In this document: positions 21,465 through 44,564 of the stretch, piece after piece
Position numbering within the stretch: position 1 is the stretch's first letter
Layout of the letters: each line of letters opens with the position of its first letter
Source of the DNA: Bacteroidota bacterium
GTDB lineage: Bacteria; Bacteroidota; Bacteroidia; Chitinophagales; Chitinophagaceae
DNA: 64,000 nt
NCBI GenBank assembly: GCA_013286305.1
Contig: JABDFW010000005.1
Location: 22,030 to 86,029 of the forward strand
Direction: 5' to 3'
Made by a program: the position numbers and the translations under genes
Notes under the pieces: model-generated
What the model saw: only the letters and a program-made list of their open reading frames with translations
Database searches by the model: none
Told to the model about the DNA's origin: nothing

Positions 21465-21494
21465 AGCCACGCTTAACCGGCGTGGCTTTTTTTT
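21465..21494 (+). terminator. Rho-independent terminator
   Basis: AGCCACGC TTAACCG GCGTGGCT T8. Confidence 0.9.
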
Positions 21495-21512
21495 GAGGTA
21501 ACAGTAATAAAA

Positions 21513-21543
21513 TTTGTTCATATCCCGCCATCGCTTATTTTTG
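21513..21543 (+). promoter_or_regulatory. Bacteroidota-type promoter for the his leader (TTTG-N19-TATTTTTG)
   Basis: TTTG at 21513-21516, 19-nt spacer, TATTTTTG at 21536-21543. Confidence 0.65.
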
Positions 21544-21547
21544 CGCC

Positions 21548-21601
21548 ATGAAAATAACAATGCATATTCATCATCACCATCATTTCTTACCACGCAGGTA
21601 A
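21548..21601 (+). CDS. hisL: Histidine operon leader peptide MKITMHIHHHHHFLPRR
   Basis: 17-codon ORF with six His codons (five consecutive) directly before an attenuator hairpin and hisG. Confidence 0.93.
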   Translation: MKITMHIHHHHHFLPRR

Positions 21602-21667
21602 GCCGGTGTTGCTGTGTGCATTACACATATAAAACAGTTTGGGCTTACCGTTAGGTAAGCCTTTTTT
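21597..21667 (+). promoter_or_regulatory. his transcription attenuator (terminator/antiterminator)
   Basis: GGTAAGCC (21597-21604) and GGTAAGCC (21654-21661) can both pair with GGCTTACC (21642-21649); the latter pair is followed by T6. Confidence 0.93.
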
Positions 21668-21683
21668 ATTTTAAATATTTGAT

Positions 21684-22538
21684 ATGAAACTTAAGATAGC
21701 AGTTCAAAAATCAGGCAGGTTGCATGATGATTCAATCAAATTGCTAAAGGAATGCGGCATTGATATAAGTAATGGAGTTAATAAACTTAAGAGTGAAGCC
21801 AGCAATTTTCCATTAGAAGTATTTTTTCTGCGGGATGATGATATTCCGCAGTATGTAGAGGATGCCGTTGCCGATATTGGCTTTGTGGGCGAAAATGTAG
21901 TGTATGAGAAGCAGAAAAAGGTTGATGTTGTGGAAAAGCTTGGTTTCGGCAGGTGCAGGCTTTCCATTGCCGTAAAACGCGGGGATGTGTATGACGGAGT
22001 AAACTTTTTGCAAGGCAAGCGCATTGCTACCAGTTATCCTGTTTTGGTTAAAGATTTTTTGCAACAAAAAGGTATTGATGCAGAGATTCATGAAATAAGC
22101 GGCAGCGTTGAAATAGCCCCGGGCATAGGTTTGGCGGAGGCCATCTGTGACCTTGTAAGCAGCGGCTCCACCTTATTTATGAATGGGTTAAAGGAAACAG
22201 AAACCATACTACATTCACAGGCGGTGCTAATAAAAAACCAACAACTGGCCTTTCCTCAGCAGGAAATATTGAACAAATTATTGTTCAGGATACAGTCAGT
22301 AAAAAAAGCAAAAAACAACAAATATATTTTGCTTAATGCCCCCAATGACAAGCTGGATGAAATAATATCGTTATTACCGGGAATGAAAAGCCCCACTGTT
22401 TTGCCTTTGGCAGATAAAGGCTGGAGCAGTGTGCACAGCGTATTGAGCGAGAATGAGTTTTGGCACATAATAGAACAATTAAAACAGGCAGGTGCACAGG
22501 GTATCCTGGTTGTGCCTATTGAAAAAATGATCGTTTGA
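21684..22538 (+). CDS. hisG: ATP phosphoribosyltransferase (long form)
   Basis: LKIAVQKSGRLHDDSIKLLKECGI, RIATSYPVL, GSVEIAPGIGLAEAICDLVSSGSTL. Confidence 0.96.
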   Translation: MKLKIAVQKSGRLHDDSIKLLKECGIDISNGVNKLKSEASNFPLEVFFLRDDDIPQYVEDAVADIGFVGENVVYEKQKKVDVVEKLGFGRCRLSIAVKRGDVYDGVNFLQGKRIATSYPVLVKDFLQQKGIDAEIHEISGSVEIAPGIGLAEAICDLVSSGSTLFMNGLKETETILHSQAVLIKNQQLAFPQQEILNKLLFRIQSVKKAKNNKYILLNAPNDKLDEIISLLPGMKSPTVLPLADKGWSSVHSVLSENEFWHIIEQLKQAGAQGILVVPIEKMIV

Positions 22539-22575
22539 AAATAAATTCGGGCAGATAAATGCAAATAGTTGGCGA

Positions 22576-23868
22576 ATGAAAATTTATATACATCCTGCTA
22601 AAGCCGAATGGCAACAAATAATTAAAAGGCCGGCATTTGATACCCTGGGCCTGCAGGACAAAGTGCGTTCTGTTTTGGATGATGTACGGCTAAATGGTGA
22701 TGACGCGGTTAAAAAATATACTAAACAATTTGAGGGGATTGAACCGGAGGGTATTTCTGTAAATGAATTTGAAATAGCAGAAGCAGAAGGGTTATTGCCG
22801 GCTGAATTAAAAGAAGCCATAAAAACGGCGGCAAAAAACATAAAGGCCTTTCATCAAAAGCAATTACAGCAACCTGAAATAATAGAAACAATGCCGGGTG
22901 TAACCTGTTGGCGAAAATCGGTAGGAATTGAGAAGGTGGGTATATATATTCCAGGCGGAACAGCGCCTTTATTTTCTACGGTGTTAATGCTGGCGATACC
23001 GGCTGTAATTGCAGGTTGCAGGCAAATTGTATTATGTACCCCGGCACAAAAAAATGGAAAAATACACCCTGCTGTTTTGTACAGCGCAGCTTTATGCGGG
23101 GTAACAAAACTATATAAAGTTGGCGGGGCACAGGCTATTGCCGCGATGGCATATGGGACTGAAACAATACCCAGGGCTGATAAAATATTTGGCCCGGGCA
23201 ACCAATATGTTACGTGTGCAAAACAATTGGTTCAGATGGATGGCGTGGCCATTGACATGCCCGCCGGCCCAAGCGAGGTTTGTGTATTGGCAGATGAAAC
23301 CGCCGATGCATCTTTTGTTGCAGCAGACCTTTTATCGCAGGCAGAACATGGAACCGACAGCCAGGTTGTTTTAATAACGGATTCGGAAGAAATGGCTACG
23401 AAAGTTATAGCTGAAACAGAAGCGCAATTGAATGTTTTGCCAAGAAAGGAAATTGCAAATGAAGCGTTAAAAAACAGCCTCGTTATTGTGTTAAAAAATA
23501 TTGAGGAAGCCATTGAACTGGTTAACGAATACGCTGCCGAGCATTTAATAATTGCATGTAAAAATGATGAAGAAATTTCACAACGCGTAATCAACGCAGG
23601 ATCAGTGTTCCTGGGCAATTATTCGCCTGAAAGTGTGGGCGATTATGCAAGCGGTACTAACCATACTTTACCAACCAATGGCTTTGCCAAAACATACAGT
23701 GGCGTGAGTGTTGACAGCTTTGTTAAAAAAATCACTTACCAAAAAGTTAGTAGGGAGGGATTGCTGAATATCGGGAAAACTGTTGAAACTTTGGCTGAAT
23801 TTGAAGGATTGGAAGCGCATAAAAATGCTGTAAGTATCAGGCTAAAGTCAATAATAGAAGGTCATTGA
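22576..23868 (+). CDS. hisD: Histidinol dehydrogenase
   Basis: VGIYIPGGTAPLFSTVLMLAIPA, DMPAGPSEVCVLAD, LLSQAEHGTDSQ, FLGNYSPESVGDYASGTNHTLPT. Confidence 0.97.
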   Translation: MKIYIHPAKAEWQQIIKRPAFDTLGLQDKVRSVLDDVRLNGDDAVKKYTKQFEGIEPEGISVNEFEIAEAEGLLPAELKEAIKTAAKNIKAFHQKQLQQPEIIETMPGVTCWRKSVGIEKVGIYIPGGTAPLFSTVLMLAIPAVIAGCRQIVLCTPAQKNGKIHPAVLYSAALCGVTKLYKVGGAQAIAAMAYGTETIPRADKIFGPGNQYVTCAKQLVQMDGVAIDMPAGPSEVCVLADETADASFVAADLLSQAEHGTDSQVVLITDSEEMATKVIAETEAQLNVLPRKEIANEALKNSLVIVLKNIEEAIELVNEYAAEHLIIACKNDEEISQRVINAGSVFLGNYSPESVGDYASGTNHTLPTNGFAKTYSGVSVDSFVKKITYQKVSREGLLNIGKTVETLAEFEGLEAHKNAVSIRLKSIIEGH

Positions 23869-24193: not shown

Positions 24194-25252
24194 ATGTTTG
24201 AACTGGATAAACTTATAAGAGAAAACATTAAAAGACTTGTTCCTTATTCTTCAGCGCGGGATGAATTTAGCGGGGAAGCAAAAGTTTTTTTAGATGCAAA
24301 TGAAAACAGCCTGGGTTCGCCATTACCAAAATGGTACAATCGTTACCCTGACCCGCATCAACAAAAGCTTAAGGCGCTAATAAGCGTGATAAAAGGGGTT
24401 GCACCGGAACATATTTTTTTAGGTAACGGCAGTGATGAATGTATAGATCTTTTGTTCAGATGTTTTTGTGAGCCTGGAAAAGATAATACAATTATTTGCC
24501 CGCCCACTTACGGCATGTATGAAGTAAGCGCAAATATTAATGATGTTCAAGTTCGAAAAGCTCCTTTACTGGATGATTTTCAGCTTGATCTGGTACATCT
24601 TGAAAATTTAGCGGATACAAACACAAAAATAGTATGGTTGTGTTCGCCAAATAATCCAACAGGCAATTCGCTGAACCGGCAGGATGTTGAAGCAGTGCTA
24701 AACAATTTTAATGGCATCGTGGTTATTGATGAAGCATATATAAATTTTTCGAAACAAAAGAGTTTTTTGCAAGAGTTGTCGGACTACCCTAACCTGGTTG
24801 TTATGCAAACATTCAGCAAGGCATGGGGGCTGGCTGGGTTAAGGTTAGGAATTGCTTTTGCATCAACAGGCATTATAGATACCCTTGATAAGGTAAAACC
24901 ACCTTATAATATTGGGCAGGCTACACAGGAAATTGCATTACAGGCGCTTGAGAATACCGGCCAGGTAAATGACATGATACTGGAATTAACAGATATGAGG
25001 TCGGCACTGGCAGATGTACTGGCACAAATACCAACAGTTGAGAAGGTGTACCCTTCAGATGCCAATTTTATTTTGGTAAAAATAAAAGAGGCACGGAAAG
25101 TGTACGATTTTTTGCTTACAAAAGCAATTGTGGTGCGCGACAGGAGCAAGGTAAAATTGTGCGAAGATTGTTTGAGGATAACCGTAGGTACGGAAAAAGA
25201 AAATACTGACCTGGTGGATGCATTACATGAGTGGGTGTTGATGCACGTATAG
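24194..25252 (+). CDS. hisC: Histidinol-phosphate aminotransferase
   Basis: FLDANENSLGSP, IFLGNGSDECIDLLFRCFCEPG, WLCSPNNPTGNSL, QTFSKAWGLAGLRLGIA. Confidence 0.96.
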   Translation: MFELDKLIRENIKRLVPYSSARDEFSGEAKVFLDANENSLGSPLPKWYNRYPDPHQQKLKALISVIKGVAPEHIFLGNGSDECIDLLFRCFCEPGKDNTIICPPTYGMYEVSANINDVQVRKAPLLDDFQLDLVHLENLADTNTKIVWLCSPNNPTGNSLNRQDVEAVLNNFNGIVVIDEAYINFSKQKSFLQELSDYPNLVVMQTFSKAWGLAGLRLGIAFASTGIIDTLDKVKPPYNIGQATQEIALQALENTGQVNDMILELTDMRSALADVLAQIPTVEKVYPSDANFILVKIKEARKVYDFLLTKAIVVRDRSKVKLCEDCLRITVGTEKENTDLVDALHEWVLMHV

Positions 25253-25286: not shown

Positions 25287-26588
25287 ATGAAAAAGACATT
25301 CTTTCACTTTGTTTTGAGTACACTATTGCTGATGGCGGCAAACAGCCTGTTGGCATGTAATAACGATTCCCTCAAGACGACAAATGCGTCTGCAACACCC
25401 AAGCCCGATGCAGACAATGCAGGTTTAAAATTACCTGCAGGGTTTGGAGCATTGGTAGTTGCAGGTAACGTTGGCGAAGCCAGGCATATAGCCGTAACGA
25501 AGGAAGGCGATATATATGTAAAGCTGGCAAGCCTGAAGGGGGGCAAAGGCATATATTGGCTACATCCAAAAAGCGATGGCAAGGTTGATGAAAAGAACGG
25601 GTTTGGCAGTTATACAGGCACAGGCATGTACGTCAAGGACGGATATTTATACGCTTCATCCGACGAGGAAGTTTTTAGATATAAGTTAGATGGCGGTGAT
25701 AAAGTAATTGACCCCGCAAAGCCTGAAAAAATTGTTACTGGTTTAGTTGTACGCCACGAGCATGAAGCAAAAGCGATAACCCTGGATAACAGCGGAAATG
25801 TTTATGTGAATGTTGGCGCCTACTCTAATTCGTGCCAGGAAAAAGACCGCCAGAAAGGCTCTCCGGGCATTAAGCCCTGCCCTATACTCGATTCTGCCGG
25901 CGGTATTTGGCAATTTAAAGTGGACAAGCTTAACCAAACTTATGGTACAGGTGTACACTATGCAACCGGTTTGCGTAACGTGGTTGGGCTTGACTGGAAC
26001 AGCGATATAAACAGCTTATTTGTAATGCAGCATGGTAGGGACCAGTTGCATGACCTTTTCCCAACTATGTTTGATGATAAACAAAGCGCGGAATTGCCTG
26101 CGGAATGCATGTATCAAATACACCTGGGCTCTAATTGCGGGTGGCCTTATATATATTATGATGAATTGCAGCACAAAAAAATACTCGCCCCTGAATATGG
26201 CGGCGATGGAAAGAAAACTGCCGGTGAAGATGCGCAAGACCCTGTAGTGGCTTTCCCCGGCCATCTTGCACCAAACGGGTTATTATTTTATACAGGCAGC
26301 ATGTTTCCTGAAAAATACCAGCATGGGGCGTTTATTGCTTTCCATGGCTCGTGGAACAGGGCGCCAGAGCCACAAAAAGGATTTTTTGTTGCGTTTGTGC
26401 CATTTAAAGATGGCAAACCCAGCGGCGATTGGGAAATTTTTGCCGATGGTTTTTCGGGGTTGACCCAGGTAGATTCACCCGGGGATGCAAAGCACCGCCC
26501 ATGCGGGCTGGCACAAGGCCCGGATGGCTCCCTATATGTGTCAGACGACCAGGGCGGAACGATCTATAGAATCATGTATAGCAAATAA
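25287..26588 (+). CDS. PQQ-dependent sugar (sorbosone-type) dehydrogenase, lipoprotein-like
   Basis: LPAGFGALVVAGNVGEARHIAV, ATGLRNVVGLDWNSD, FIAFHGSWNRAPEPQKG, LYVSDDQGGTIYRI. Confidence 0.85.
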   Translation: MKKTFFHFVLSTLLLMAANSLLACNNDSLKTTNASATPKPDADNAGLKLPAGFGALVVAGNVGEARHIAVTKEGDIYVKLASLKGGKGIYWLHPKSDGKVDEKNGFGSYTGTGMYVKDGYLYASSDEEVFRYKLDGGDKVIDPAKPEKIVTGLVVRHEHEAKAITLDNSGNVYVNVGAYSNSCQEKDRQKGSPGIKPCPILDSAGGIWQFKVDKLNQTYGTGVHYATGLRNVVGLDWNSDINSLFVMQHGRDQLHDLFPTMFDDKQSAELPAECMYQIHLGSNCGWPYIYYDELQHKKILAPEYGGDGKKTAGEDAQDPVVAFPGHLAPNGLLFYTGSMFPEKYQHGAFIAFHGSWNRAPEPQKGFFVAFVPFKDGKPSGDWEIFADGFSGLTQVDSPGDAKHRPCGLAQGPDGSLYVSDDQGGTIYRIMYSK

Positions 26589-26600
26589 TAATAAAAGCTG

Positions 26601-27014
26601 ATGAAAAAAATCATTTTCAGTGTTGTCGCAATAAGCTGTTTTAGCCTATGTATTTTTGCAAAACAGGGTGATACTCCCGCGAGTATAGCAAGAGGGGAGA
26701 AATTGTACCAAACCTATTGTTTAACTTGCCACCAAAAGAGTGGTAATGGAGTGCCGCATATGAACCCGCCGCTGGTTAAAACGTCTTATGTTACGGGGGA
26801 CAAGAAAAAACTTATTACATGGGTATTAAAAGGATCAACGGAGAATATCCCCATTGATGACAAAACATACAGCAATAATATGCCTGCGCAAAATTATTTG
26901 AAAGACGATCAAATTGCTGATATACTCACCTATGTACGCAATAGTTTTGGCAATACTGCCAGTGCAATAGTCCCGGCAGACGTAAAAGCAATACGGGCGG
27001 TGGTTGTTAAGTAA
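26601..27014 (+). CDS. c-type cytochrome
   Basis: GEKLYQTYCLTCHQKSGNGVPHMNPPL, NMPAQNYLKDDQIADILTYVRNSFGN. Confidence 0.92.
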   Translation: MKKIIFSVVAISCFSLCIFAKQGDTPASIARGEKLYQTYCLTCHQKSGNGVPHMNPPLVKTSYVTGDKKKLITWVLKGSTENIPIDDKTYSNNMPAQNYLKDDQIADILTYVRNSFGNTASAIVPADVKAIRAVVVK

Positions 27015-27061
27015 AGCGGAGCAATTTTTTACCGGTAATTAAATGATTAGTAAATTTGGGT

Positions 27062-27355
27062 ATGAGAATAGAAGTAACAAAAGTACAATCATTAGGAAAG
27101 TACAAAATACATGCTGTTTTTAATGATGGCACAGAAGGAGATTATGATTTAAGTGATCTTGCCGGGAAAGGTGTATTTCAGATTTGGGAAACGCCGGGGT
27201 ATTTTGACCGGGTATTTATTAATCCTGAAAACAATGCAATTGCCTGGGATGAAGAATTAGAAATAGATACACTTAATTGCTATTTGCATATAAGGAATAT
27301 GGGTTTTGATGAATACAGAGAGCTTTTTAAACAAAACAAATATGCCTTCAGTTAG
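27062..27355 (+). CDS. DUF2442 domain protein
   Basis: MRIEVTKVQSLGKYKIHAVFNDGTEGDYDLSDL...WDEELEIDTL. Confidence 0.8.
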   Translation: MRIEVTKVQSLGKYKIHAVFNDGTEGDYDLSDLAGKGVFQIWETPGYFDRVFINPENNAIAWDEELEIDTLNCYLHIRNMGFDEYRELFKQNKYAFS

Positions 27356-27602
27356 CCGCTTTTTTGGAATAGTAATATATTTTTATTTTAAAGATCATAA
27401 CCCTCCTCACTTTCATGCTGAATATGGCGAATATACAGCGGAGATACTTATTAATGAACTTTCAGTTGGCGTTGGATATTTACCACCGCGTGTTTTAGGC
27501 TTAGTGATTGAGTGGGCACAGACTCATCAGCAGGAATTATTACAAAACTGGCAAATAACTGCTATCGGAGGTACCTTTATCCAAATTGAACCATTAAAAT
27601 AA
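27342..27602 (+). CDS. DUF4160 domain protein
   Basis: [35 protein letters not shown]; overlaps DUF2442 gene by 14 nt. Confidence 0.85.
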
Positions 27603-28792
27603 TGTCTTTAGAAACAGTTTCACCTGATACCTCATTGTCTTCCGTTACAACATGTAAACGTATTTTATTTATTGACCGCGACGGGACGATCATAAACGAA
27701 GCGCCACCCACTTACCAGATAGATAGCTGGGATAAGCTACAGTTTTACCCTTACGTATTTCAATACCTTTCCAGGATAGCGGCGGAGTTTGATTATGAAA
27801 TGGTAATGGTGAGTAACCAGGACGGGCTGGGCACGCCAAGCTTTCCTGAAGAAACATTTTGGCCTGTTCAAAATTTTGTGGTTAAAAGTTTTGAAGATGA
27901 AGGGGTGCATTTTTCAGCATTTTATTTTGACAGGACCTTTGCCAAAGACAATGCGCCCACACGCAAACCAAATACCGGGATGCTTACAGGGTATTTGAAT
28001 AATCCTTTCTATGATATTGAAAACTCTTTTGTAATTGGCGACAGGATAACAGATGTACAACTTGCAAAGAACCTGGGTTGCAAAGCTATTTGGCTTAACA
28101 ATGATGAAAAACTGGGTTCCGGCGAAATAAAAGATACAGTTAATGCATTACAACCAACCATCGCGCTGGAAACTAAAGACTGGAAAAGTATTTATGAATT
28201 TTTTAAACTTGGGTTAAGAACAGTTGTACACGACCGCAACACAAGTGAAACAAAAATTCATATTGAATTAAACCTTGACGGCAGCGGCAAAGCCAATATT
28301 CATACAGACCTGGGTTTTTTTGACCATATGCTTGACCAGATAGCCAGGCATGGCAAAATGGATATTGTTATTGAAACAAAAGGCGACCTGCATATTGATG
28401 AACACCATACCATTGAAGATACTGGTATTGCTTTAGGAGAAGCGTTTGCAAAAGCCCTTGCAGATAAACGCGGAATGGAGCGTTATGGCTTTGCATTACC
28501 CATGGATGAAGCCGAGGCTAAGGTGCTGATTGATTTTGGCGGAAGGAACTGGCTCGTATGGAATGCTGAATTTAAAAGAGAAAAAATAGGAGAGATGCCT
28601 ACTGAAATGTTCTTTCACTTTTTTAAATCATTTAGTGACGCGGCAAAATGCAACCTGAACGTTGAATGTAAAGGCGAGAACGAGCACCACAAAATAGAGG
28701 CTATTTTTAAAGCCTTTGCAAAAGCTATTAAGATGGCTGTTAAACGCGACCCGTTCAGTAATTATTTGCCGAGTACGAAGGGGGTGTTGTGA
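27602..28792 (+). CDS. hisB: Bifunctional histidinol-phosphatase / imidazoleglycerol-phosphate dehydratase
   Basis: [68 protein letters not shown]. Confidence 0.97.
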
Positions 28793-28836: not shown

Positions 28837-29232
28837 CTATATGTCAACACTTAATTCACGCTTCATAATGTCTATACAAAATTTATGTTCCCGTAAAAAA
28901 TTTAGTCCAATTACACCGTCATAATCAGAAGTAATGCCATGAGATAAAAAGTCATAAACCTGTACTTCAAAATTAGTTTTGACAATTCCTAAACACTCTA
29001 AACGCTCAATGTCGTATGTTTCAACTACTATAATCCCGTTAGAAGTTTCAATTTCTTTTTCGCCTTTGCTATTTTTCAATTCGTATCCTGAAAAATATAG
29101 AACGTTGCTGTCAATGGTAGTATGCGTCGCTGCAGTATCAAGTGCAATGCGAAATTTGAATTTCCCTTCAATCGTTGCGTTTACAATGATAACGTCTTCG
29201 TCAGTAGGGAGGTCGAAGGGGAATACTTTCAT
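28837..29232 (-). CDS. Retropepsin-like aspartyl protease
   Basis: FRIALDTAATHTTID and YDGVIGLNFLREHKFCIDI, typical of clan AA single-domain aspartyl proteases. Confidence 0.75.
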   Translation of the reverse strand: MKVFPFDLPTDEDVIIVNATIEGKFKFRIALDTAATHTTIDSNVLYFSGYELKNSKGEKEIETSNGIIVVETYDIERLECLGIVKTNFEVQVYDFLSHGITSDYDGVIGLNFLREHKFCIDIMKRELSVDI

Positions 29233-29495
29233 ATTCTTCTCAATATTCCGGTTTTACGATGTTGTTTCAGATTACCGGCAAATGCGATTGTAACAGTTGA
29301 GAAACCGTCGGTTTTGTCTTTGCCAATATAACAAACTTCCTTTTTATCTTTGCTATGGTACAAAACAATCCCGCCCAGAACTGAAGCGTTTTTCATTTCG
29401 GGATTACCTAAAAGCACCCACTCGTCAGGATACAATTTTTTTACATCATCAAAAGCTATATATGTATTGCCCATAATGTTCTGTTTGAATTGCAA
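29229..29495 (-). CDS. Hypothetical protein, translationally coupled to the retropepsin-like gene
   Basis: 4-nt ATGA overlap with the downstream gene. Confidence 0.6.
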   Translation of the reverse strand: MQFKQNIMGNTYIAFDDVKKLYPDEWVLLGNPEMKNASVLGGIVLYHSKDKKEVCYIGKDKTDGFSTVTIAFAGNLKQHRKTGILRRI

Positions 29496-29710: not shown

Positions 29711-29773
29711 ATGAAGAAAACAACATTAAATATTAATTGGTGGTGGCATTCAATCTCCTGTCGGGGCTTGTAA
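29711..29773 (+). CDS. trpL: Tryptophan operon leader peptide MKKTTLNINWWWHSISCRGL
   Basis: 20-codon ORF with three consecutive Trp codons just before an attenuator hairpin and trpE. Confidence 0.92.
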   Translation: MKKTTLNINWWWHSISCRGL

Positions 29774-29837
29774 TGGCATTGCCAGTATGTATTTATAAAA
29801 CATATAAGCTTCGACAGAAACGTCGGGGCTTTTTTTA
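29758..29837 (+). promoter_or_regulatory. trp transcription attenuator (terminator/antiterminator)
   Basis: GTCGGGGCTT at 29760-29769 and 29822-29831 both complementary (with G-U pairs) to AAGCTTCGAC at 29806-29815; second pairing followed by T-run. Confidence 0.9.
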
Positions 29838-29845
29838 TGCCCTAT

Positions 29846-30186: not shown

Positions 30187-31599
30187 ATGAAAAAGATAAA
30201 CGTTACCACGAAGTTTAAAAAAATGCTTTCTGATGTCTATACGCCGGTTGGTATTTACCTGCGGTTGCGCGACCGTTTCAGGGATACCATCCTGTTGGAA
30301 AGTGCTGATAACAGGGCTGCAGAGAATAGCTATTCTTATATTGGCATTAACGCCATTGCGGGCATTGAGATAAGCAACTACACATCATTTGAGTACAAAC
30401 TGCCAGGCCAAAAACCCGAAAAAAATGATATTAAGGAGGCAATGCATGTGCCCGCTATGATATGGGATTTTATGGGCAGGTTTGAGGTAGAAAAATCGGA
30501 AGAAAAAGCAGTAAGTATTGCCCAGGGGCTTTTTGGATATACCACTTTTGACGCAGTACAATTTTTTGAAACGATAAAACTAAAATCGTTCAAGGCTAAC
30601 CCGGAAATACCGTTAATGCGTTATCGCCTGTATCAATACGTGATCGTGATAAATCATTTTAAGAACGAAATGTTTTTGTGTGAGAATGTAATGGCGGGTA
30701 TTGAAAGCGAAGTGGCAGTAGTGGAATCGCTGATAAAAAGCAAGGATGTGCCTTCTTATCCTTTTAAAACTTCGGGCGATGAATCGTGCAATATGACGGA
30801 TGAGGAATATATGCAGATGGTAAAGAAGGGGATAAAGAGTTGCTTAAGAGGGGATGTTTTCCAGATAGTGTTGAGCAGAAGATTCAAAAAGAGGTTTAGC
30901 GGTGATGAGTTTAATGTGTACAGGGCATTGCGGAGTGTAAACCCCTCACCATACCTTTTCTATTTTGATTATGGCGATTACAAATTATTTGGCAGCAGTC
31001 CCGAATCGCAAATAATCATACGAAACGGCAAGGCCATTGTTCATCCAATTGCGGGAACATTCAAACGTACCGGGAATGACGAAAAAGATAAAGAGCTGGC
31101 AGATGCGTTGTTGATAGATGCCAAAGAAAATGCCGAGCATACCATGCTGGTTGACCTTGCAAGAAATGACCTGAGCCGGCTATGCACGAATGTGGAAGTA
31201 AGTAAATACAGGCAGGTGCATTATTACTCTCACGTAATACATATGGTTAGCGAAGTGGTTGGCAAAATAGAAGAAGGCGCTAACCCGTTTTTTCTGTTGG
31301 CAGCGAGTTTTCCCGCAGGTACTTTAAGCGGCGCCCCCAAATATAAAGCGATGGAGCTGATTGATTTTTATGAGCCAACGCCAAGGAGTTATTATGGTGG
31401 GTGCACAGGTTCAATTGGGTTTGATGGCAGTTGTGTTCATGCAATAATGATACGTACTTTTTTGAGCAAACAGAATACGTTACATTACCAGGCAGGTGCA
31501 GGGATAGTAGCCGCAAGCAATCCTGAAAGTGAGTTGCACGAAGTGAACAATAAACTGGGTGCTTTGAAAAAAGCGATTGAACTAGCGGAGACCCTCTAA
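30187..31599 (+). CDS. trpE: Anthranilate synthase component I
   Basis: GDVFQIVLSRRFKKRF, NPSPYLFYFDYGDYKLFGSSPE, HPIAGTFKRTGN, SFPAGTLSGAPKYKAMELI. Confidence 0.97.
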   Translation: MKKINVTTKFKKMLSDVYTPVGIYLRLRDRFRDTILLESADNRAAENSYSYIGINAIAGIEISNYTSFEYKLPGQKPEKNDIKEAMHVPAMIWDFMGRFEVEKSEEKAVSIAQGLFGYTTFDAVQFFETIKLKSFKANPEIPLMRYRLYQYVIVINHFKNEMFLCENVMAGIESEVAVVESLIKSKDVPSYPFKTSGDESCNMTDEEYMQMVKKGIKSCLRGDVFQIVLSRRFKKRFSGDEFNVYRALRSVNPSPYLFYFDYGDYKLFGSSPESQIIIRNGKAIVHPIAGTFKRTGNDEKDKELADALLIDAKENAEHTMLVDLARNDLSRLCTNVEVSKYRQVHYYSHVIHMVSEVVGKIEEGANPFFLLAASFPAGTLSGAPKYKAMELIDFYEPTPRSYYGGCTGSIGFDGSCVHAIMIRTFLSKQNTLHYQAGAGIVAASNPESELHEVNNKLGALKKAIELAETL

Positions 31600-32118: not shown

Positions 32119-32147
32119 AGTCTCCCTTTAGGGAGGTTTGGAGGGTG
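32119..32147. repeat. Junction repeat, forward orientation, upstream of trpG
   Basis: AAGTCTCCCTTTAGGGAGGTTTGGAGGGTG. Confidence 0.75.
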
Positions 32148-32149
32148 AC

Positions 32150-32749: not shown

Positions 32750-32778
32750 ACCCCCATCCCCTAAAGGGGGTGTAAGGA
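32750..32778. repeat. Junction repeat, reverse orientation, after trpG stop
   Basis: ACCCCCATCCCCTAAAGGGGGTGTAAGG. Confidence 0.8.
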
Positions 32779-34898: not shown

Positions 34899-35612
34899 AT
34901 GAGCGGGGCTGATTTGAATATGAACAATGCAGAAAATCCTTCTTCCGGGGGTAAAGTTTCGCGCGTACGTGTTAAGGTTTGTGGAATGACAAGCCCGGAA
35001 CAGGTTCAGCAACTGGATGATATGGGAATAGAATTTACCGGTTTTATTTTTTATCCCCGGTCGCCACGCTTTGTTCACAGGCATATGACAGCAGAGGAGA
35101 TAAAAAAAATAAGAGGCCGTATAAATAAGGTAGGTGTGTTTGTAAATGCAACTGCTGAGGAAGTATTGCGTACGGTAGATAAATGCGGCTTATACCTTGT
35201 GCAATTGCACGGTGATGAATCACCAAAAGTTTGTGAAAAAATTGCTGATTATATAACCGTGGTAAAGGCATTCAGGTTGGCAGAAGATGAAAATATACTT
35301 TGGAAAATAAAAGATTACCAGGATGTGGTGGATATGTTTCTTTTTGATACCGAAGGCGCGGGATATGGAGGTACCGGTAAAAAATTTAACTGGGAATTGC
35401 TGAAAGGCCTGAATATTGGGAAACCTTTTTTTTTAAGCGGGGGCATTACACCCGCAGATGCTGAAGCGTTAAAAATATTTCAAAGAGAGCCCGTTGCAAA
35501 AGACCTGTTTGCTGTTGATATAAACAGCAAATTTGAAGTAGTTCCCGGAGTGAAGGATATTGAAAAGATAGGAAAATTTGTGAAGGAGTTGTCAGAACCA
35601 CGATTTGGGTAG
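34899..35612 (+). CDS. trpF: Phosphoribosylanthranilate isomerase
   Basis: VKVCGMTSPEQVQQLDDMGIEFTGFIFYPRSPRFV, VQLHGDESPKVCEKI, LSGGITPADAEA. Confidence 0.95.
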   Translation: MSGADLNMNNAENPSSGGKVSRVRVKVCGMTSPEQVQQLDDMGIEFTGFIFYPRSPRFVHRHMTAEEIKKIRGRINKVGVFVNATAEEVLRTVDKCGLYLVQLHGDESPKVCEKIADYITVVKAFRLAEDENILWKIKDYQDVVDMFLFDTEGAGYGGTGKKFNWELLKGLNIGKPFFLSGGITPADAEALKIFQREPVAKDLFAVDINSKFEVVPGVKDIEKIGKFVKELSEPRFG

Positions 35613-35662: not shown

Positions 35663-36058
35663 ATGCCTGAATATAAATATCACGATATTACCCAAAAGAT
35701 TATTGGTGCTGCTATGCGGGTCCATTCAGTGTTGGGCAATGGCTTTCAGGAAGTAATTTATCAAAGGGCACTTGAAATAGAATTTAAAGAATTAAGACTT
35801 TCTTATGAAAGAGAATATAATATGAAGGTTTATTATAAAGGGAATGACATTGGAGAAAGGCGTGTTGACTTTTTGGTAGAAGGGAAAATAATGGTAGAAT
35901 TAAAAGCTATAATTAATTTAGAAAACGTTCATTTGGCCCAGGCAAAAAATTACCTGGAAGCTTATAATGTTGAAGTGGGACTACTTTTAAATTTTGGCGC
36001 AATAAGCTTGGAAGTAAGACGATTGGGAAATAATAAGTATTCTCCCAATATCCTTTAA
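35663..36058 (+). CDS. GxxExxY family protein
   Basis: ITQKIIGAAMRVHSVLGNGFQEVIYQRALEIEF, VDFLVEGKIMVELKAI. Confidence 0.93.
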   Translation: MPEYKYHDITQKIIGAAMRVHSVLGNGFQEVIYQRALEIEFKELRLSYEREYNMKVYYKGNDIGERRVDFLVEGKIMVELKAIINLENVHLAQAKNYLEAYNVEVGLLLNFGAISLEVRRLGNNKYSPNIL

Positions 36059-36090
36059 TCCCTAAAATCTACCCAAATCGTGGTTCAGAC
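36057..36090. repeat. Right inverted repeat of GxxExxY cassette (overlaps start of GNAT gene)
   Basis: AATCCCTAAAATCTACCCAAATCGTGGTTCAGAC. Confidence 0.88.
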
Positions 36091-36574
36091 AAGAGATGCC
36101 GTTTTAGATGATTTGCCGCAACTGCTGGATATATACAATGATATTATCCTGCATACTACTGCTGTGTACGATTATGAGCCGCACACACTTGAAATGCGCA
36201 AACAATGGTTTGAAACAAAACAGCAACAGGGTTTTCCTGTATTTGTGGCGGAAGAGGATGGAGTAATAGTTGGGTTTAGTTCTATCGGGTCATTTAGGGC
36301 ATGGGCGGCATATAAATATTCAGTGGAGAATTCTATATATGTAAAAGCGGATTGCAGGGGTAAGGGCATGGGAAAAGTATTAATGCAGCCATTGATTGAA
36401 GCATCAAAAACGTTGGGAATGCACACTATCATTGCCAGTATAGATGCAAACAATGAAGCAAGTTTAAAGTTGCATAAAAGTTTTGGCTTTCAGGAAGTAG
36501 CGCATTTTAAACAGGTAGGCTACAAGTTCGACCGGTGGCTGGATTTGAAGTTTTTACAGTTGATATTTGACTAA
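36080..36574 (+). CDS. GNAT family N-acetyltransferase, phosphinothricin acetyltransferase-like
   Basis: VQTRDAVLDDLPQLLDIYNDII, SVENSIYVKADCRGKGMGKVLMQPLIE, SIDANNEASLKLHKSFGFQEV. Confidence 0.92.
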   Translation: MVQTRDAVLDDLPQLLDIYNDIILHTTAVYDYEPHTLEMRKQWFETKQQQGFPVFVAEEDGVIVGFSSIGSFRAWAAYKYSVENSIYVKADCRGKGMGKVLMQPLIEASKTLGMHTIIASIDANNEASLKLHKSFGFQEVAHFKQVGYKFDRWLDLKFLQLIFD

Positions 36575-37884: not shown

Positions 37885-39108
37885 ATGATAAATACAACAA
37901 TATCGCTGAACAGGGGCACATATAAGCAGCCAAATATTTTTGGGTATTATGGCAATTATGGCGGGGCTTATATTCCGGAGATGCTGCACAGGAATGTGGA
38001 GGAATTAAAGGAGAGGTACCTGGAGATCATGTACGAGCCTGCGTTTCAAAAAGAGTTTCGTGATCTGCTACGCGATTATGTGGGCAGGCCAACTCCTCTT
38101 TTTTATGCAAAACGGCTGAGCGAAAAACATAACACCAACATTTACTTAAAACGCGAAGACCTTAACCATACCGGTGCGCATAAAATTAATAATGCAATAG
38201 GCCAGGTGCTGCTTGCGCAAAGGTTAGGCAAGAAAAGGATTATTGCGGAAACGGGCGCAGGCCAGCACGGGGTGGCAACAGCAACCGTATGTGCATTAAT
38301 GGGGCTGGAATGTATAGTATATATGGGTGTAAAGGATATTGAACGTCAGGCGCCGAATGTTGCACGTATGAAAATGCTTGGTGCAACAGTGCGCCCTGCG
38401 GCAAGCGGAAGCCAAACATTAAAAGACGCAACCAATGAAGCAATCCGCGACTGGATAAATAACCCTAATGATACACATTATGTAATAGGCAGCGTTGTAG
38501 GGCCGCACCCTTACCCGGATATGGTGGCACGCTTTCAAAGTATCATCAGTGAGGAGACCCGTAAGCAATTATTGGAACATACGGGCAGTGAATTGCCAAC
38601 ACATGTTATTGCTTGTGTGGGTGGAGGCAGTAATGCTGCAGGTGCGTTTTATCATTTCTTAGATGAACTAACTGTAAAGCTAATTGCCGTTGAAGCGGCA
38701 GGCCATGGAGTGCACAGTGGGATGAGCGCGGCCACCACGCAATTAGGCAGGCCCGGCGTATTACACGGCAGCAAAAGTTTAGTAATGCAAACAGAAGATG
38801 GGCAGGTGGTTGAACCGCACAGTATTTCTGCGGGGCTGGATTACCCGGGCATTGGCCCAATGCACGCGCATTTATTTGAAACCGGCCGGGGCACCTTTTT
38901 AAGCGCTACAGATGATGAAGCATTACAGGCAGCTTTTGAATTATGCAGGCTGGAAGGCATTATTCCCGCATTGGAAAGCGCGCATGCCCTGGCAGCATTA
39001 AATCAATTGAGGTTTAAGAGAACGGATACTTTGGTAGTATGTTTAAGTGGGAGAGGAGATAAGGATTTGGCAACGTATATGAAGAATATAGAAGCCCCTA
39101 ACCCCTGA
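37885..39108 (+). CDS. trpB: Tryptophan synthase beta chain
   Basis: [74 protein letters not shown]. Confidence 0.97.
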
Positions 39109-39178: not shown

Positions 39179-39970
39179 ATGGGCAGGATATCAGAATTAT
39201 TTAAGCAAAGACAGAACAATATTTTAAACGTGTACTGCACTGCGGGTTTTCCGCATTTGGAAAGTACGTTGACGGTGATGAAGGCTTTACAGGATAATGG
39301 CGCCGACATTATAGAACTTGGTATGCCATACAGTGACCCTCTTGCTGATGGCCCTGTTATACAAGAAAGTGGTACAGTAGCTTTACATAATGGAATGACT
39401 ATCGCAAAATTGTTTGAACAATTAAAAGCCCTCCGCAATAGCTCCATCACTCTGCCTGTGATACTAATGGGATATATGAACCCTGTATTGCAATATGGGT
39501 TTGAAAAATTTTGTGCAGATGCTGCTGCAGTCGGAATAGATGGATTGATATTGCCTGACCTGCCACAATATGAATTTGAAACGGAGTATGGCGCTGTAAT
39601 AAAAAAATACGGCCTGGATTTTGTTTTTCTTGTAACGCCTGAAACATCGGATGAACGCGTTAAACAACTGGATGCACTAAGCAGCGGATTTTTATATGCG
39701 GTATCCTCTTCATCTACAACAGGGAAGGATAAGGATTTTAATGCGGTGGAAAAATACCTGCAGAAATTACAATCATTACAATTAAAAAATCCGGTACTTG
39801 TTGGTTTTGGTATTAAGGATAAACAAACATTTGAAGCAGCATGCAAATATGCTGATGGCGCTATTATAGGCACTGCGTACATAAAAGCATTGGAGCATGC
39901 AGAAGATATTAATGAAGCAACAAAAAAGTTTTTGGAAGGAATAAAGTCCCACCCCCTAAAGGGAGGCTAA
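39179..39970 (+). CDS. trpA: Tryptophan synthase alpha chain
   Basis: LNVYCTAGFPHLESTLTVMKALQDNGADIIELGMPYSDPLADGPVIQ, GLILPDLP, LVGFGIKDKQTFEAACKYADGAIIGTAYI. Confidence 0.97.
   Translation: MGRISELFKQRQNNILNVYCTAGFPHLESTLTVMKALQDNGADIIELGMPYSDPLADGPVIQESGTVALHNGMTIAKLFEQLKALRNSSITLPVILMGYMNPVLQYGFEKFCADAAAVGIDGLILPDLPQYEFETEYGAVIKKYGLDFVFLVTPETSDERVKQLDALSSGFLYAVSSSSTTGKDKDFNAVEKYLQKLQSLQLKNPVLVGFGIKDKQTFEAACKYADGAIIGTAYIKALEHAEDINEATKKFLEGIKSHPLKGG
39946..39968. repeat. Junction repeat, reverse orientation, encoding the trpA C-terminus (SHPLKGG)
   Basis: GTCCCACCCCCTAAAGGGAGGCT. Confidence 0.75.
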
Positions 39971-40016: not shown

Positions 40017-40694
40017 ATGGAGATAGAAACAATAAACCGGCTTCAAAGTTCCCCTTTAGGGGCGGAGGGGCATCCTGTGACAATTATCAAATACAACGCG
40101 GGCAACATTCAAAGTGTCTTGTACGCTTTGGAGCGCATTGGCGTTTCTGCTATTGTTACAGATGATCATGAGCAAATTATTGCGGCAGACAAAATTATTT
40201 TTCCGGGTGTTGGTGAAGCCAGAAGTGCCATGAATTACTTAAATGAAAGAGGGCTGGATAAAGTGATAAAAAATCTTACTCAACCGGTGCTGGGCATTTG
40301 TTTGGGTATGCAATTAATGTGCAGGTATTCAGAAGAAAATGATACACCGTGTTTAAGCATATTCGGTGAAGAGGTAAAGAAATTCGCAAGCCCCCATCCT
40401 CCCGAATCAAGTTCGGGACAGGCTCTAAAGGGGGGTATTAAGATCCCACAAATAGGCTGGAATAATATTTACGATCTTAAATCGCCATTATTCAAAAATG
40501 TTCCTGAAGAGAGCTACTGTTATTTTGTACATGGTTATTATGCCGCTTTAGGTGAGCATACTATTGCCACAACCAATTATGTACAGCCTTACAGCAGCGC
40601 TTTGCACAGGGGTAATTTTTATGGCGTGCAGTTTCATCCTGAGAAGAGTGCGGTGGTTGGAGAACAGATACTTAAAAATTTTATCAGTCTATAA
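40017..40694 (+). CDS. hisH: Imidazole glycerol phosphate synthase subunit HisH with N-terminal and internal repeat-derived segments
   Basis: VTIIKYNAGNIQSVLYALERIG, IFPGVGEARSAMNYL, LGICLGMQLMCRYSEE, GVQFHPEKSAVVGEQILKNF. Confidence 0.96.
   Translation: MEIETINRLQSSPLGAEGHPVTIIKYNAGNIQSVLYALERIGVSAIVTDDHEQIIAADKIIFPGVGEARSAMNYLNERGLDKVIKNLTQPVLGICLGMQLMCRYSEENDTPCLSIFGEEVKKFASPHPPESSSGQALKGGIKIPQIGWNNIYDLKSPLFKNVPEESYCYFVHGYYAALGEHTIATTNYVQPYSSALHRGNFYGVQFHPEKSAVVGEQILKNFISL
40045..40071. repeat. Junction repeat, forward orientation, encoding HisH residues SSPLGAEGH
   Basis: AAAGTTCCCCTTTAGGGGCGGAGGGGC. Confidence 0.85.
40389..40436. repeat. Junction-repeat family member inside hisH (reverse orientation, nested stem)
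   Basis: AGCCCCCATCCTCCCGAATCAAGTTCGGGACAGGCTCTAAAGGGGGG; near reverse complement of 34030-34082. Confidence 0.9.
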
Positions 40695-40702
40695 ATACAA
40701 CA

Positions 40703-41416
40703 ATGCAAATAATACCTGCTATTGATATTATTGATGGAAAATGTGTGAGGCTTACGCAGGGCGATTATTTGCAAAAGACGATATACAACGAAAACCCGCT
40801 TGAGGTTGCCAAACAATTTGAAGATGCGGGGTTACTAAGATTGCATCTTGTTGATCTGGACGGAGCAAAGGCGGGTGCAGTAAAAAACTGGAAAGTGCTT
40901 GAAACGATTGCCTCCCAAACATCGTTGATCATTGATTTTGGTGGAGGTTTGAAAAAAAAGGAAGATGTGCAGGTTGTGTTTAATTCAGGCGCAGCATTTG
41001 CAACTGTTGGAAGCCTCGCCGTTAAAAATGAAGCGGAGTTTGTAAAATGGCTGCAATATTTTGGTGCGGGTAAATTTTTATTGGGCGCCGATGTAAAAGA
41101 AGAAAGGATAGCTATAAGCGGATGGGCTGAAACAACCGACAACTTGGTGTATGATTTTATTGAAAAATATATTGCCTGCGGCGTACAGCAAATTTTTTGT
41201 ACTGATGTAAGCAAAGACGGTAAGTTGGAAGGGCCATCTATCGGGTTGTATAAAAACATCATTGCCAAATTCCCGGCATTGCATTTTATAGCAAGCGGTG
41301 GAGTGAGTTCAGTAAAAGACCTTGAAGACCTTAAAGCAATTGGTTGCAAAGGAGCGATAGTGGGAAAAGCGATATATGAAGGCAGGATAAAGTTAGAGGA
41401 ACTGGCAACCATCTAA
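40703..41416 (+). CDS. hisA: Phosphoribosylformimino-AICAR ribotide isomerase
   Basis: MQIIPAIDIIDGKCVRLTQGDY, LHLVDLDGAKAG, IDFGGGLKKKEDV, IASGGVSSVKDLEDL. Confidence 0.97.
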   Translation: MQIIPAIDIIDGKCVRLTQGDYLQKTIYNENPLEVAKQFEDAGLLRLHLVDLDGAKAGAVKNWKVLETIASQTSLIIDFGGGLKKKEDVQVVFNSGAAFATVGSLAVKNEAEFVKWLQYFGAGKFLLGADVKEERIAISGWAETTDNLVYDFIEKYIACGVQQIFCTDVSKDGKLEGPSIGLYKNIIAKFPALHFIASGGVSSVKDLEDLKAIGCKGAIVGKAIYEGRIKLEELATI

Positions 41417-41459: not shown

Positions 41460-42122
41460 ATGCATCAAATTCTAAACGTTCATGTAGTTACAGAAGGGTA
41501 CAATTTTTGGTTGTTTGCCTTGGCGAGCCTTATGCTGAATATTACACCGGGCAACGATATGCTTTATGTAGCCACAAGAAGCACAAGCCAGGGGGTTAAG
41601 GGCGGTGTTATATCCGCTCTTGGTGTAATGGCCGGTTGCATGGTACATATTTTTGCGGCGGTAATAGGGCTGTCAGCTATTATTGCAAGCTCGGCAGTGG
41701 CTTTTCAAACGATAAAATATATTGGCGCGGGGTATTTAATTTATCTTGGTATCCGCTCAATTATCAGTAAAAAAAATGCATTTGTTGTTAATGCTAAAGC
41801 GGTTGATGTTTCTTACAAAAGAATATTTTGGCAAGGTGTTTTAACCAATGTGTTAAACCCAAAAGTTGCTTTATTCTTTTTGGCATTTTTACCCCAGTTT
41901 ATTAAGTTATCGGCGAAACATGTGTGGCCGCAAATATTATTTTTAGGTACTTGGTTCGATGTTGGGGGAACTTTGATCAATATTCTTGTTGCGCTGTTAT
42001 TTGGTAAGATTGGCGCATGGTTTAGCAGGTCTGCATGGTTTCAAAAATGGCAAAACAAAGTAACGGGGCTGATTTTAGTTGGGTTGGGAGTAAAAGTGGC
42101 AATGGGGAGCAGAGGACATTAA
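41460..42122 (+). CDS. LysE/RhtB family amino-acid exporter
   Basis: [82 protein letters not shown]. Confidence 0.94.
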
Positions 42123-42163
42123 AGGGTATTTTCCAGGCACGCTATTCAAGTGAAAGCAAAATT

Positions 42164-42988
42164 ATGAGCGAAGAGTTACATAAAACGGACAAAGCTATAA
42201 GTTCCCCCTTTAGGGAGCAGAGGGTGCACGGCCTCACCAAACGCATCATTCCCTGCCTGGATATTAAAGATGGCAGAACGGTTAAAGGCACCAATTTTGT
42301 AAACCTCCGCGATGCGGGTGACCCGGTTGAACTTGGCGCATTTTACGCGCAGCAAGGCGCGGACGAATTGGTTTTCCTGGACATAACTGCCACCAATGAA
42401 AGACGCAAAACCCTAAGTGAACTTGTTAACCGCATTGCACATCACATTAATATCCCTTTTACGGTTGGTGGGGGTATTTCTTCTGTTGAGGATGTAAGTG
42501 TTCTGTTACAAAATGGGGCAGATAAGATCTCGGTAAATACCGCGGCGTTTAAAAGGCCCGAACTGATACAGGAACTGGAGAAACAATTTGGCAGCCAGTG
42601 TGTTGTTTTGGCCATTGATACCCGGAAAGAGGATGATGGCGAATGGTATGTTTATTTAAACGGAGGCCGGGTAAAAACGGATGTAAAGTGTTTTGATTGG
42701 GCCAAAAAGGGTGTTGCACTTGGGGCAGGAGAAATATTGTTAACCTCTATGAACCACGATGGTACAAAGCAGGGTTTTGCGCTGGATATAACAAGGCAAC
42801 TGGCTGAGGGCCTGCCTGTGCCGGTAATTGCCAGCGGCGGCGGTGGAACCATGCAGCATTTTGTGGATGTATTTGAACAGGGTAATGCAGATGCAGCTCT
42901 TGCGGCCAGTATTTTTCACTTTAAGGAGATCAGTATTCCTGATTTGAAGCGATATTTGCAGAAGGAGGCAATAAATGTGAGAATATAA
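42164..42988 (+). CDS. hisF: Imidazole glycerol phosphate synthase subunit HisF with N-terminal extension
   Basis: [57 protein letters not shown]. Confidence 0.96.
42200..42227. repeat. Junction repeat, forward orientation, inside hisF 5' coding region
   Basis: AAGTTCCCCCTTTAGGGAGCAGAGGGTG translated within [12 protein letters not shown]. Confidence 0.8.
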
Positions 42989-42991
42989 ATA

Positions 42992-43135
42992 ATGTATTTC
43001 GTCCTGGCGATAAATATAATAGCTATTGCCGTTTTCAACTGGATGAAACGCAAACAAAAAGAACGACGGGTTTATTATACAGACAGATTTGACTATATTT
43101 TGAACGAGTTGTTAGAACGATTGAGAAAGGATTAA
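42992..43135 (+). CDS. Putative small membrane protein (47 aa)
   Basis: MYFVLAINIIAIAVFNWMKRKQKERRVYYTDRFDYILNELLERLRKD; TM then basic stretch; 3 nt after hisF stop. Confidence 0.45.
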   Translation: MYFVLAINIIAIAVFNWMKRKQKERRVYYTDRFDYILNELLERLRKD

Positions 43136-43198
43136 TGACCAGTAAAGCCTCAATATCCTTAAATAAAGTTTTATATTTGTGAAAGTAATTGTTACGTT

Positions 43199-43402
43199 AT
43201 GGATGATGCAATATTGTTGGAAAAACTATCGAAGCTGCCCGAAAAATTGAAAAGCGAGGTGGCTGATTTTGTCGATTTTTTGACAAATAAAAATGTAAAT
43301 GGAAAGGATGAAAGAAGGCCGGTATTTGGTTCAGCCAAAGGCATGTTTAAGATGATGCCAGATTTTGACGAACCGCTGGAAGATTTTAAAGAATATATGT
43401 AA
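43199..43402 (+). CDS. DUF2281-like antitoxin
   Basis: LEKLSKLPEKLKSEVADFVDFL, GSAKGMFKMMPDFDEPLEDFKEYM; adjacent PIN gene. Confidence 0.85.
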   Translation: MDDAILLEKLSKLPEKLKSEVADFVDFLTNKNVNGKDERRPVFGSAKGMFKMMPDFDEPLEDFKEYM

Positions 43403-43786
43403 ATGGATAATTTGCTTGATACGCATAGTTTGCTTTGGTATATGGAAGGTGATTCTTCTTTATCAGCAAAAGCAAAATCACTAATTGAAAAAGATAATTC
43501 GGTCAACTATGTAAGCATAGTAAGTATTTGGGAGATATCGATTAAAATAAGTTTAGGCAAATTACAGGCTAAAACTCCTTTTAGCAGTTTCGCGTATTAT
43601 ATTTCATATAATGGCTTTCAAATATTGCCTGTGTCATTTCAGGATGCATTAGTTGTTTCCAGTTTACCATTCCATCACAAGGACCCTTTTGACCGAATGT
43701 TGATTGCACAAGCAATTAATAATAATTTGCGGATAATTACCAAAGACAATATGTTCGCTAACTACAGTGTGTCTTTGATCTGGTAA
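43403..43786 (+). CDS. PIN-domain toxin (VapC-like)
   Basis: LLDTHSLLWYMEGDSSLS, VSIVSIWEISIKISLGKL, HHKDPFDRMLIAQAI, IITKD. Confidence 0.93.
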   Translation: MDNLLDTHSLLWYMEGDSSLSAKAKSLIEKDNSVNYVSIVSIWEISIKISLGKLQAKTPFSSFAYYISYNGFQILPVSFQDALVVSSLPFHHKDPFDRMLIAQAINNNLRIITKDNMFANYSVSLIW

Positions 43787-43895
43787 ATAAGTGGGATAAA
43801 CATTTATTTGGGCACAGGTTAGGGCAGGAGGTACAAGAGGGGGGTGCAACGAAAGCTAAATAGCAAAACATCAGATGGCATCATAAAAATATAAC

Positions 43896-44564
43896 ATGGC
43901 GCAAAAAAGCAGCAACAGGCAATTAAACGCTCCATTAGGCCAGCCCGCGCCGGTACGGACGGGAGAGGGGGGCATTGATTTTAAGAAGTATGCGGATGGC
44001 CTTGTGCCTGCTGTTGTACAGGATTATGATACCTACAAGGTACTGATGCTGGGATTTATGAATGAGGAGGCTGTTAAGAAAACCGAGGAAACCGGCAAGG
44101 TTACTTTTTACAGCCGCAGCAAAAAGCGCCTGTGGACAAAGGGAGAGGAAAGCGGTAATTTTTTGATAGTTAAAAGTGTTGCTATTGACTGCGATAAGGA
44201 TACACTGCTTATTAAGGCCCATCCTGTTGGCCCAACCTGCCACACAGGAGCGGATACCTGCTGGAGTGAACGGAACCATAAGGAGGACTTTTTATATTAC
44301 CTGGAGGACATTATTAACCTGCGCAGGCAAGCGTCGGCTGAGGAGAGTTACGTAGCCAAACTCTTTTCTAAAGGGATAAACAAGATTGCCCAAAAAGTTG
44401 GCGAAGAAGCGGTTGAACTGGTTATAGAAGCCAAGGACAGCAGTGAAGAACTATTTTTGAACGAAGGGGCCGACCTTTTGTTTCATTATTTAATTTTGCT
44501 TAACGCCAAAGGTTATAAATTGCAGGACGTAATTGACGTGTTAAAAAAACGACATTCAAAATGA
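43896..44564 (+). CDS. hisIE: Phosphoribosyl-AMP cyclohydrolase / phosphoribosyl-ATP pyrophosphatase with N-terminal extension
   Basis: GLVPAVVQDYDTYKVLMLGFMNEEAVKKTEETGKVTFYSRSKKRLWTKGEESGN, HPVGPTCHTGADTCW, KVGEEAVELVIEAKD. Confidence 0.97.
   Translation: MAQKSSNRQLNAPLGQPAPVRTGEGGIDFKKYADGLVPAVVQDYDTYKVLMLGFMNEEAVKKTEETGKVTFYSRSKKRLWTKGEESGNFLIVKSVAIDCDKDTLLIKAHPVGPTCHTGADTCWSERNHKEDFLYYLEDIINLRRQASAEESYVAKLFSKGINKIAQKVGEEAVELVIEAKDSSEELFLNEGADLLFHYLILLNAKGYKLQDVIDVLKKRHSK
43929..43971. repeat. Diverged junction repeat, forward orientation, inside hisIE 5' coding region
   Basis: GCTCCATTAGGCCAGCCCGCGCCGGTACGGACGGGAGAGGGG, translated as APLGQPAPVRTGEGG. Confidence 0.6.

Follow-up and report, generated by a model that had tools for sequence, protein, structure and literature searches.

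A leader peptide within the his-trp supraoperon of Chitinophagaceae that probably senses both tryptophan and histidine

We analysed a stretch of 64,000 nucleotides from a Bacteroidota genome (hereafter the window) in which the genes for tryptophan (Trp) synthesis lie inside the histidine (His) operon, and we focus on the leader peptide preceding trpE, whose codons suggest that it responds to both amino acids. The window sits on contig C5 of a draft genome of 3.58 Mb, rated 69.6% complete, and the closest matches of its TrpA among named genomes are Chitinophagaceae and Parafilimonas-labelled bins. Calling of open reading frames (ORFs) and searches with curated profiles place all his and trp genes on the + strand in the order hisGDC..B, trpEGDCFBA, hisHA..F..IE (Table 1), just as an earlier reading of the letters alone (the sequence-only reading) had claimed. 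A complete and co-directional trp set stands between hisB and hisH, which is the arrangement expected of a trp introgression into a his operon. The same reading held that the his set was cut exactly once, and this was mistaken: unrelated genes also separate hisC from hisB, hisA from hisF, and hisF from hisIE. The trp set is itself interspersed with non-trp ORFs (DUF559, GxxExxY, GNAT, a TPR protein, and one without assignment). The true start of hisF is probably further downstream than that of its ORF, which overlaps the LysE transporter gene.

The sequence-only reading also implied two leaders, and both are there, one before hisG and one before trpE, each with an intrinsic terminator. The His leader is directly preceded by a promoter-like TTTG-N19-TATTTTTG (read by eye). 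Region 2 and the 5' arm of the terminator hairpin can form a duplex of -15.4 kcal/mol, the last His codon is about 15 nt from region 2, and the leader folds better than dinucleotide-preserving shuffles (z -4.0). A separate His leader before hisH was sought by scanning for runs of at least three His codons; the only clearly His-rich leader is the one at hisG, and the remaining matches lie inside coding sequence or consist of three chance His codons.

The leader before trpE has the anatomy of a trpL-type attenuator, with a short leader ORF carrying clustered control codons upstream of the operon and, between leader and first gene, an intrinsic terminator whose stem covaries. That of the window folds better than dinucleotide-preserving shuffles (z -4.9). 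The mutually exclusive 2:3 antiterminator and 1:2 protector pairings were recovered in silico: the latter is present in the consensus fold, and the 2:3 duplex has a median of -14.3 kcal/mol, versus -7.1 in shuffled sequences. The peptide is strongly conserved, typically as ...WWWHTNSxRGL, and the codon that follows the Trp run (position +1) is usually one for His. The median distance from the first base of this codon to region 2, which lies downstream, is 13 nt, near that found in the His leader. Taking the footprint of the ribosome from general knowledge, a ribosome stalled with the +1 His codon in its A site would stop just short of covering region 2, and a stall one codon further would start to cover it. 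With this assumed footprint, control codons for both amino acids are thus placed where stalling would free region 2. Some leaders resemble WWWHTTLRGL (L047, L063, L077, L090, L098, L153, L159, L198, L199, L205-L207, L210, L216, L281, L284) and look like WWWHTNS with a one-base deletion after the His codon, the frame being shifted and the stop and region 2 being kept.

Table 1. Features of the his-trp locus, in coordinates of the window.
Feature	Position	Strand	Remark
His leader peptide MKITMHIHHHHHFLPRR, then stop	21548-21601	+	6 His codons in 7 positions
His attenuator	21596-21667	+	region 2 at 21596-21604; terminator hairpin 21641-21661 and T-run
hisG	21684-22538	+	TIGR00070
hisD	22576-23868	+	TIGR00069
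hisC	24194-25252	+	TIGR01141
Sugar dehydrogenase-like (GSDH), cytochrome c, DUF2442 and DUF4160 genes	25287-27602	+	between hisC and hisB
hisB, bifunctional	27602-28792	+	NF003937
ORF between hisB and Trp leader	28837-29232	-	weak clan-AA aspartic protease match, 24.6 bits, under family cut-off
Second, small ORF between hisB and Trp leader	29235-29474	-	
Trp/His leader peptide (His sensing putative) MKKTTLNINWWWHSISCRGL, then stop	29711-29773	+	family-wide conservation
Trp control codons TGG TGG TGG	29738-29746	+	
Putative His control codon CAT	29747-29749	+	+1 after Trp run
Region 2, antiterminator strand CTGTCGGGGCTT	29758-29769	+	12 bp with region 3, -17.8 kcal/mol
Intrinsic terminator	29806-29838	+	3:4 hairpin 29806-29831 and T-run
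trpE	30187-31599	+	best match TIGR00564, 413 bits, below its curated cut-off
trpG	32138-32749	+	profile match
trpD	32909-33904	+	profile match
trpC	33988-34878	+	profile match
trpF	34899-35612	+	profile match
trpB	37885-39108	+	profile match
trpA	39179-39970	+	profile match
hisH	40017-40694	+	starts 46 bp past trpA
hisA	40703-41416	+	profile match
LysE transporter	41460-42122		between hisA and hisF
hisF ORF	42035-42988	+	TIGR00735 match begins at residue 66
VapB antitoxin match, then 127-aa ORF in VapC position	43163-43786		between hisF and hisIE; no NCBIfam match for the 127-aa ORF
hisIE	43896-44564	+	NF002747

Which switch do the late his genes obey? The sequence-only reading placed them behind both, and the Trp half of this proposal agrees with the anatomy: the gap between trpA and hisH is as short as expected within one transcript, and a search of it for an intrinsic terminator with a T-run found none. 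The His half probably does not apply to the window, where the gap between hisB and trpE measures 1.4 kb, is too long for the short-gap signature of a single transcript, and holds the minus-strand ORFs. We rejected for the window one hisG-to-hisIE transcript under both switches; such a transcript is unlikely in this genome because two minus-strand ORFs separate hisB from the Trp leader. With these ORFs in between, the His leader probably does not reach hisHAF, and hisHAF-IE therefore probably depend on the Trp switch. In compact relatives, the hisB-trpE gap is about 190-300 bp and has the short-gap signature; a single hisG-hisIE transcript may exist there, and the His leader may reach hisHAF across a gap of some 200 bp.

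We then consider how common this organisation is. One scan of named genomes gave 80 loci, most of them trpEGDCFBA-hisHAF-IE and many with hisB just upstream. Further loci came from genome sampling across the family, and duplicates were removed. Loci were called linked when hisH lies downstream of trpA, as judged within 2-15 kb downstream; the deduplicated set comprises 107 linked, 59 unlinked, and 33 undecidable loci. Genomes drawn evenly from the family gave 59 linked and 35 unlinked loci, and the trp-inside-his arrangement occurs in about 60% of the classifiable members sampled from the Chitinophagaceae, which are a large family living in soil and freshwater. The trpA-hisH gap of linked loci has a median of 39.5 bp and is at most 50 bp in 61 of 106. 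In sampled unlinked genomes, about 4 kb separate hisG from hisH, a spacing that fits an uninterrupted hisGDCB-H operon. In genome G055 (family f20), trpA and hisH are adjacent, and the leader is not assignable from pattern matches alone. The gene order is therefore a widespread feature of the clade, known in kind, and neither unique nor new: trp genes inside the his operon were earlier reported for Thermoflavifilum thermophilum and Filimonas lacunae (Del Duca et al. 2021, PMC8305728). The sequence-only reading had proposed a survey of gene order across Bacteroidota and had named a long-known, fixed order as grounds for giving up its idea; on the order itself those grounds are present, and what survives is the regulatory part.

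This part rests on the association between the +1 codon and the genes that follow the trp operon. In linked loci, the codon encodes His in 102 of 106 leaders and Gln in the other four, versus 29 of 58 with His in unlinked loci, where the other 29 have Q, L, S, Y, R, K, or N. Linked leaders in which the motif is otherwise gone still have the His (WWWHGINP, WWHVSRAYAV, WWWHHLRSGE), and two linked leaders with a single Trp codon have an adjacent His (L260, SWHLNS; L266, GWHIIP). To account for shared ancestry, we fitted models of correlated evolution on an IQ-TREE phylogeny of TrpE with 188 tips, this gene tree taking the place of a species tree. Linkage changed 18 times on the tree and the His state about 20 times. 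The rate of His loss is 0.075 in linked and 2.13 in unlinked loci, i.e., losses are about 28 times slower when the loci are linked, and the likelihood-ratio test (LRT) over independence gives 28.2; it reached at most 7.1 in 60 simulations under independence. The LRT is 23.7 within Chitinophagaceae alone and rises to 33.8 when loci where only hisH is linked are not scored as linked. The codon changes follow the same contrast, with 7 CAT/CAC and 2 His/non-His changes in linked rows versus 3 and 12 in unlinked ones (Fisher p 0.01). The codon preceding the Trp run (position -1) behaves similarly: it is His in 23 of 106 linked and in 1 of 58 unlinked leaders, its state changes 16 times on the tree, and the LRT is 13.2. 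We also tested for His enrichment throughout the leader and found none elsewhere; only the codons flanking the Trp run respond. Hence, within Chitinophagaceae, the second control codon is preferentially kept when genes of its pathway lie downstream, a dependence shown in silico.

A faster evolution, or a horizontal origin, of unlinked trp operons might also erase the His codon as a side effect of relaxed constraint. Unlinked leaders are indeed more variable, and their 2:3 pairing is weaker (z -2.2 vs -3.1 in linked ones). Yet they keep two or three Trp codons and an equally stable terminator. The control residue at +2 belongs to the same RNA stem, and linked and unlinked loci lose it at similar rates (LRT 2.8). 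The surplus of synonymous CAT/CAC changes among linked rows is indicative of selection acting on the codon itself. We regard this explanation as quite improbable.

A number of observations weigh against a role of the codon in His sensing. First, the control residue at +3 shows some linkage dependence as well (LRT 8.4). Second, four linked leaders lack the +1 His; in three of them (L245, L250, L251) only hisH is linked, and the fourth (L247) reads WWWQH. Third, half of the unlinked leaders retain His, perhaps due to inertia. Fourth, a sign test on phylogenetically independent pairs goes in the same direction and has too few usable pairs. Fifth, in individual folds the His codon is often paired with an AUG or GUG that follows the leader stop. 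Sixth, a single His codon may yield just a modest response. Seventh, the trend is weaker in a second family, f36, with His in 15 of 18 linked and 13 of 27 unlinked leaders (Fisher p 0.03; counts assigned by hand from pattern and protein positions), and these counts are confounded by the fact that most unlinked f36 His codons are CAC and look paired with a downstream GTG. We therefore do not take f36 as a clean independent replicate; it is one only in part, because of these GTG-paired CAC codons. One f36 locus (L300, 5780-7858, minus strand of the locus) has, in this order, trpA, a DAHP-synthase-like gene, an aromatic-amino-acid-hydroxylase-like gene, and hisH-A-F-IE. This forms a second supraoperon, in which aromatic and His synthesis are combined (gene names given by eye from translations).

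Some of these points are what one would expect of a leader that senses Trp only, in which the His codon is kept by the 1:2 protector stem or by shared ancestry, and hisHAF-IE are either Trp-regulated or internally promoted. Conservation of the leader extends to its nucleotides (TGGTGGTGGCATACAAACTC), CAT pairs with the AUG just past the leader stop in many folds, and both the retention of His in unlinked leaders and the partial dependence of the +3 residue fit such a scheme. It does not predict, however, that the loss of His should depend on the presence of downstream his genes, and the +2 residue, which is equally structural, shows little such dependence. In the consensus fold of a 30-sequence alignment, the Trp codons and the ACA/CTCC bases pair with region 2 and sequence beyond it, and this pairing accounts for the conservation of T, N, and S in the leader; the His codon is unpaired. 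Moreover, among leaders without an AUG or GUG partner, the ratio of His to other residues is 41:4 in linked loci and 9:22 in unlinked ones. The persistence of His in the strongly diverged linked leaders mentioned above and its gain at -1 are also left unexplained. RNA structure contributes to the conservation of the codon, yet it does not account for the dependence on linkage, and partner-less leaders and consensus fold show that a pure structural effect is insufficient. Sensing of Trp alone seems unlikely to us, though it deserves to be taken seriously.

We consider it likely instead that the attenuator in the middle of the operon senses both Trp and His and that the late his genes sit behind it. 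The locus would be a his-trp supraoperon, in which a whole trp operon with its own leader stands between hisB and hisH, and the leader before trpE would be a ribosome-mediated attenuator. Its operation may be pictured as follows: 1) when charged tRNA-Trp or tRNA-His is scarce, the ribosome would stall at the Trp codons or at the His codon beside them; 2) region 2, left uncovered by the stalled ribosome, would pair with region 3; and 3) transcription would proceed through trpEGDCFBA and hisHAF-IE. The His codon would let hisHAF-IE, although placed behind a Trp switch, respond to a shortage of His. The stalling at this codon, the read-through into hisH, and the physiological response are what we infer from comparative sequence data. 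As for the origin of the switch, we favour on balance a scenario in which the insertion of trp put the late his genes under the Trp attenuator, and selection then kept and repeatedly added flanking His codons, producing a dual-input switch that decays when the architecture is undone.

The sequence-only reading had expected His synthesis to be partly responsive to Trp, or else to require internal promoters. The first half is in line with a Trp attenuator upstream of the late his genes; the second loses weight, as the Trp switch probably senses both amino acids, so that a crippled His synthesis under plentiful Trp is unlikely and internal promoters are less necessary. One could still imagine that the gene order is accidental, its regulation unimportant, and that constitutive internal promoters drive hisHAF-IE. 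A scan for sigma-70-type promoters does give promoter-like sites in the operon (the one at 32166 scores 11 of 12), which are no commoner than in shuffled sequence (36 vs 37.1). The short trpA-hisH gaps of most linked loci leave little room for a promoter, and the linkage-dependent His codon would go unexplained, making this the least plausible of the alternatives and a very improbable one. If the dual switch proposed here is real, nature has run the same experiment repeatedly, with the regulatory code of a leader peptide following the genes placed behind it. What attenuator leaders sense could then be tested by simple comparison, and two separate amino-acid pathways would share a single RNA switch.

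Leaders with mixed control codons are known, such as thrL (Thr, Ile) and the ilv leaders (Ile, Val, Leu). They share with the putative Trp/His leader the control codons for several amino acids; theirs belong to related branched pathways, whereas Trp and His belong to separate ones that are joined by gene order. The trp-aro-his supraoperon of Bacillus, where trpEDCFBA is followed by hisH/hisC, tyrA, and aroE, also places a His-synthesis gene behind trp, where it comes under trp control. It differs in relying on the TRAP protein instead of a leader peptide, in that its his gene is an aminotransferase, and in the lack of a trp insertion into a his operon. The Escherichia coli trpL has adjacent Trp codons and the same 1:2, 2:3, and 3:4 pairings; stalling on the Arg codon after its two Trp codons also prevents attenuation (PMC1183508), which is why a +1 codon can act as a control codon. 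No arginine genes follow the E. coli trp operon, where the extra codon has no operon logic, unlike here, where it matches the downstream his genes; E. coli, in contrast, also uses the Trp repressor.

Among Bacteroidota, Weinberg et al. 2010 (PMC2864571) list the Bacteroid-trp leader RNA (Rfam RF01692), in which a Trp leader peptide and its RNA likewise precede trp genes. The Trp leader of the window aligns over the full model and scores 35.4 bits, under the gathering score of 49 bits. No His-sensing role for RF01692 was found in the searched text of PMC2864571. The loci described by Del Duca et al. 2021 (PMC8305728) resemble the window in that trp genes interrupt a Bacteroidota his operon with short intergenic gaps, and the authors suggest a single transcriptional unit. 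That study dealt with two species, without expression data, and the word "leader" occurs 0 times in its text, whereas here the order is tied to a leader codon across about 170 loci. We found no description of a Trp/His dual leader in the open-access literature, subscription journals lying outside the search; the likely new element is thus a Trp leader that would also sense His and would be kept by selection where late his genes follow.

The operon also carries small elements. A near-palindrome, CCCCTTTAGGGG, is dispersed in the genome, with 67 pattern matches in the draft assembly versus 2 genome-wide for a control pattern. The window has 8 matches where 0.24 are expected (at 32758, 32888, 33920, 39102, 39953, 40051, 42205, and 3995). 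Copies lie within trp and his genes or at their ends, where they contribute in-frame residues such as SSPLGAEG near the HisH start and HPLKGG at the TrpA end. Small PD-(D/E)XK-like ORFs (DUF559, GxxExxY) lie at 31689-32108 and 35663-36058 of the window and, at varying positions between trp and his genes, in many relatives (L041, L045, L062, L075, L080, L082, L087, L090, L098); they look repeatedly inserted into the operon, with the genes left unbroken. A GNAT acetyltransferase (36080-36574) recurs between trpF and trpB across the family (L039, L041, L042, L051, L080, L082, L083, L085, L093, L100, L102). Finally, outside the operon, the window contains a match to the Rfam family Bacteroidales_small_SRP (15698-15805, 92.6 bits); the relatives of this genome are Chitinophagaceae.

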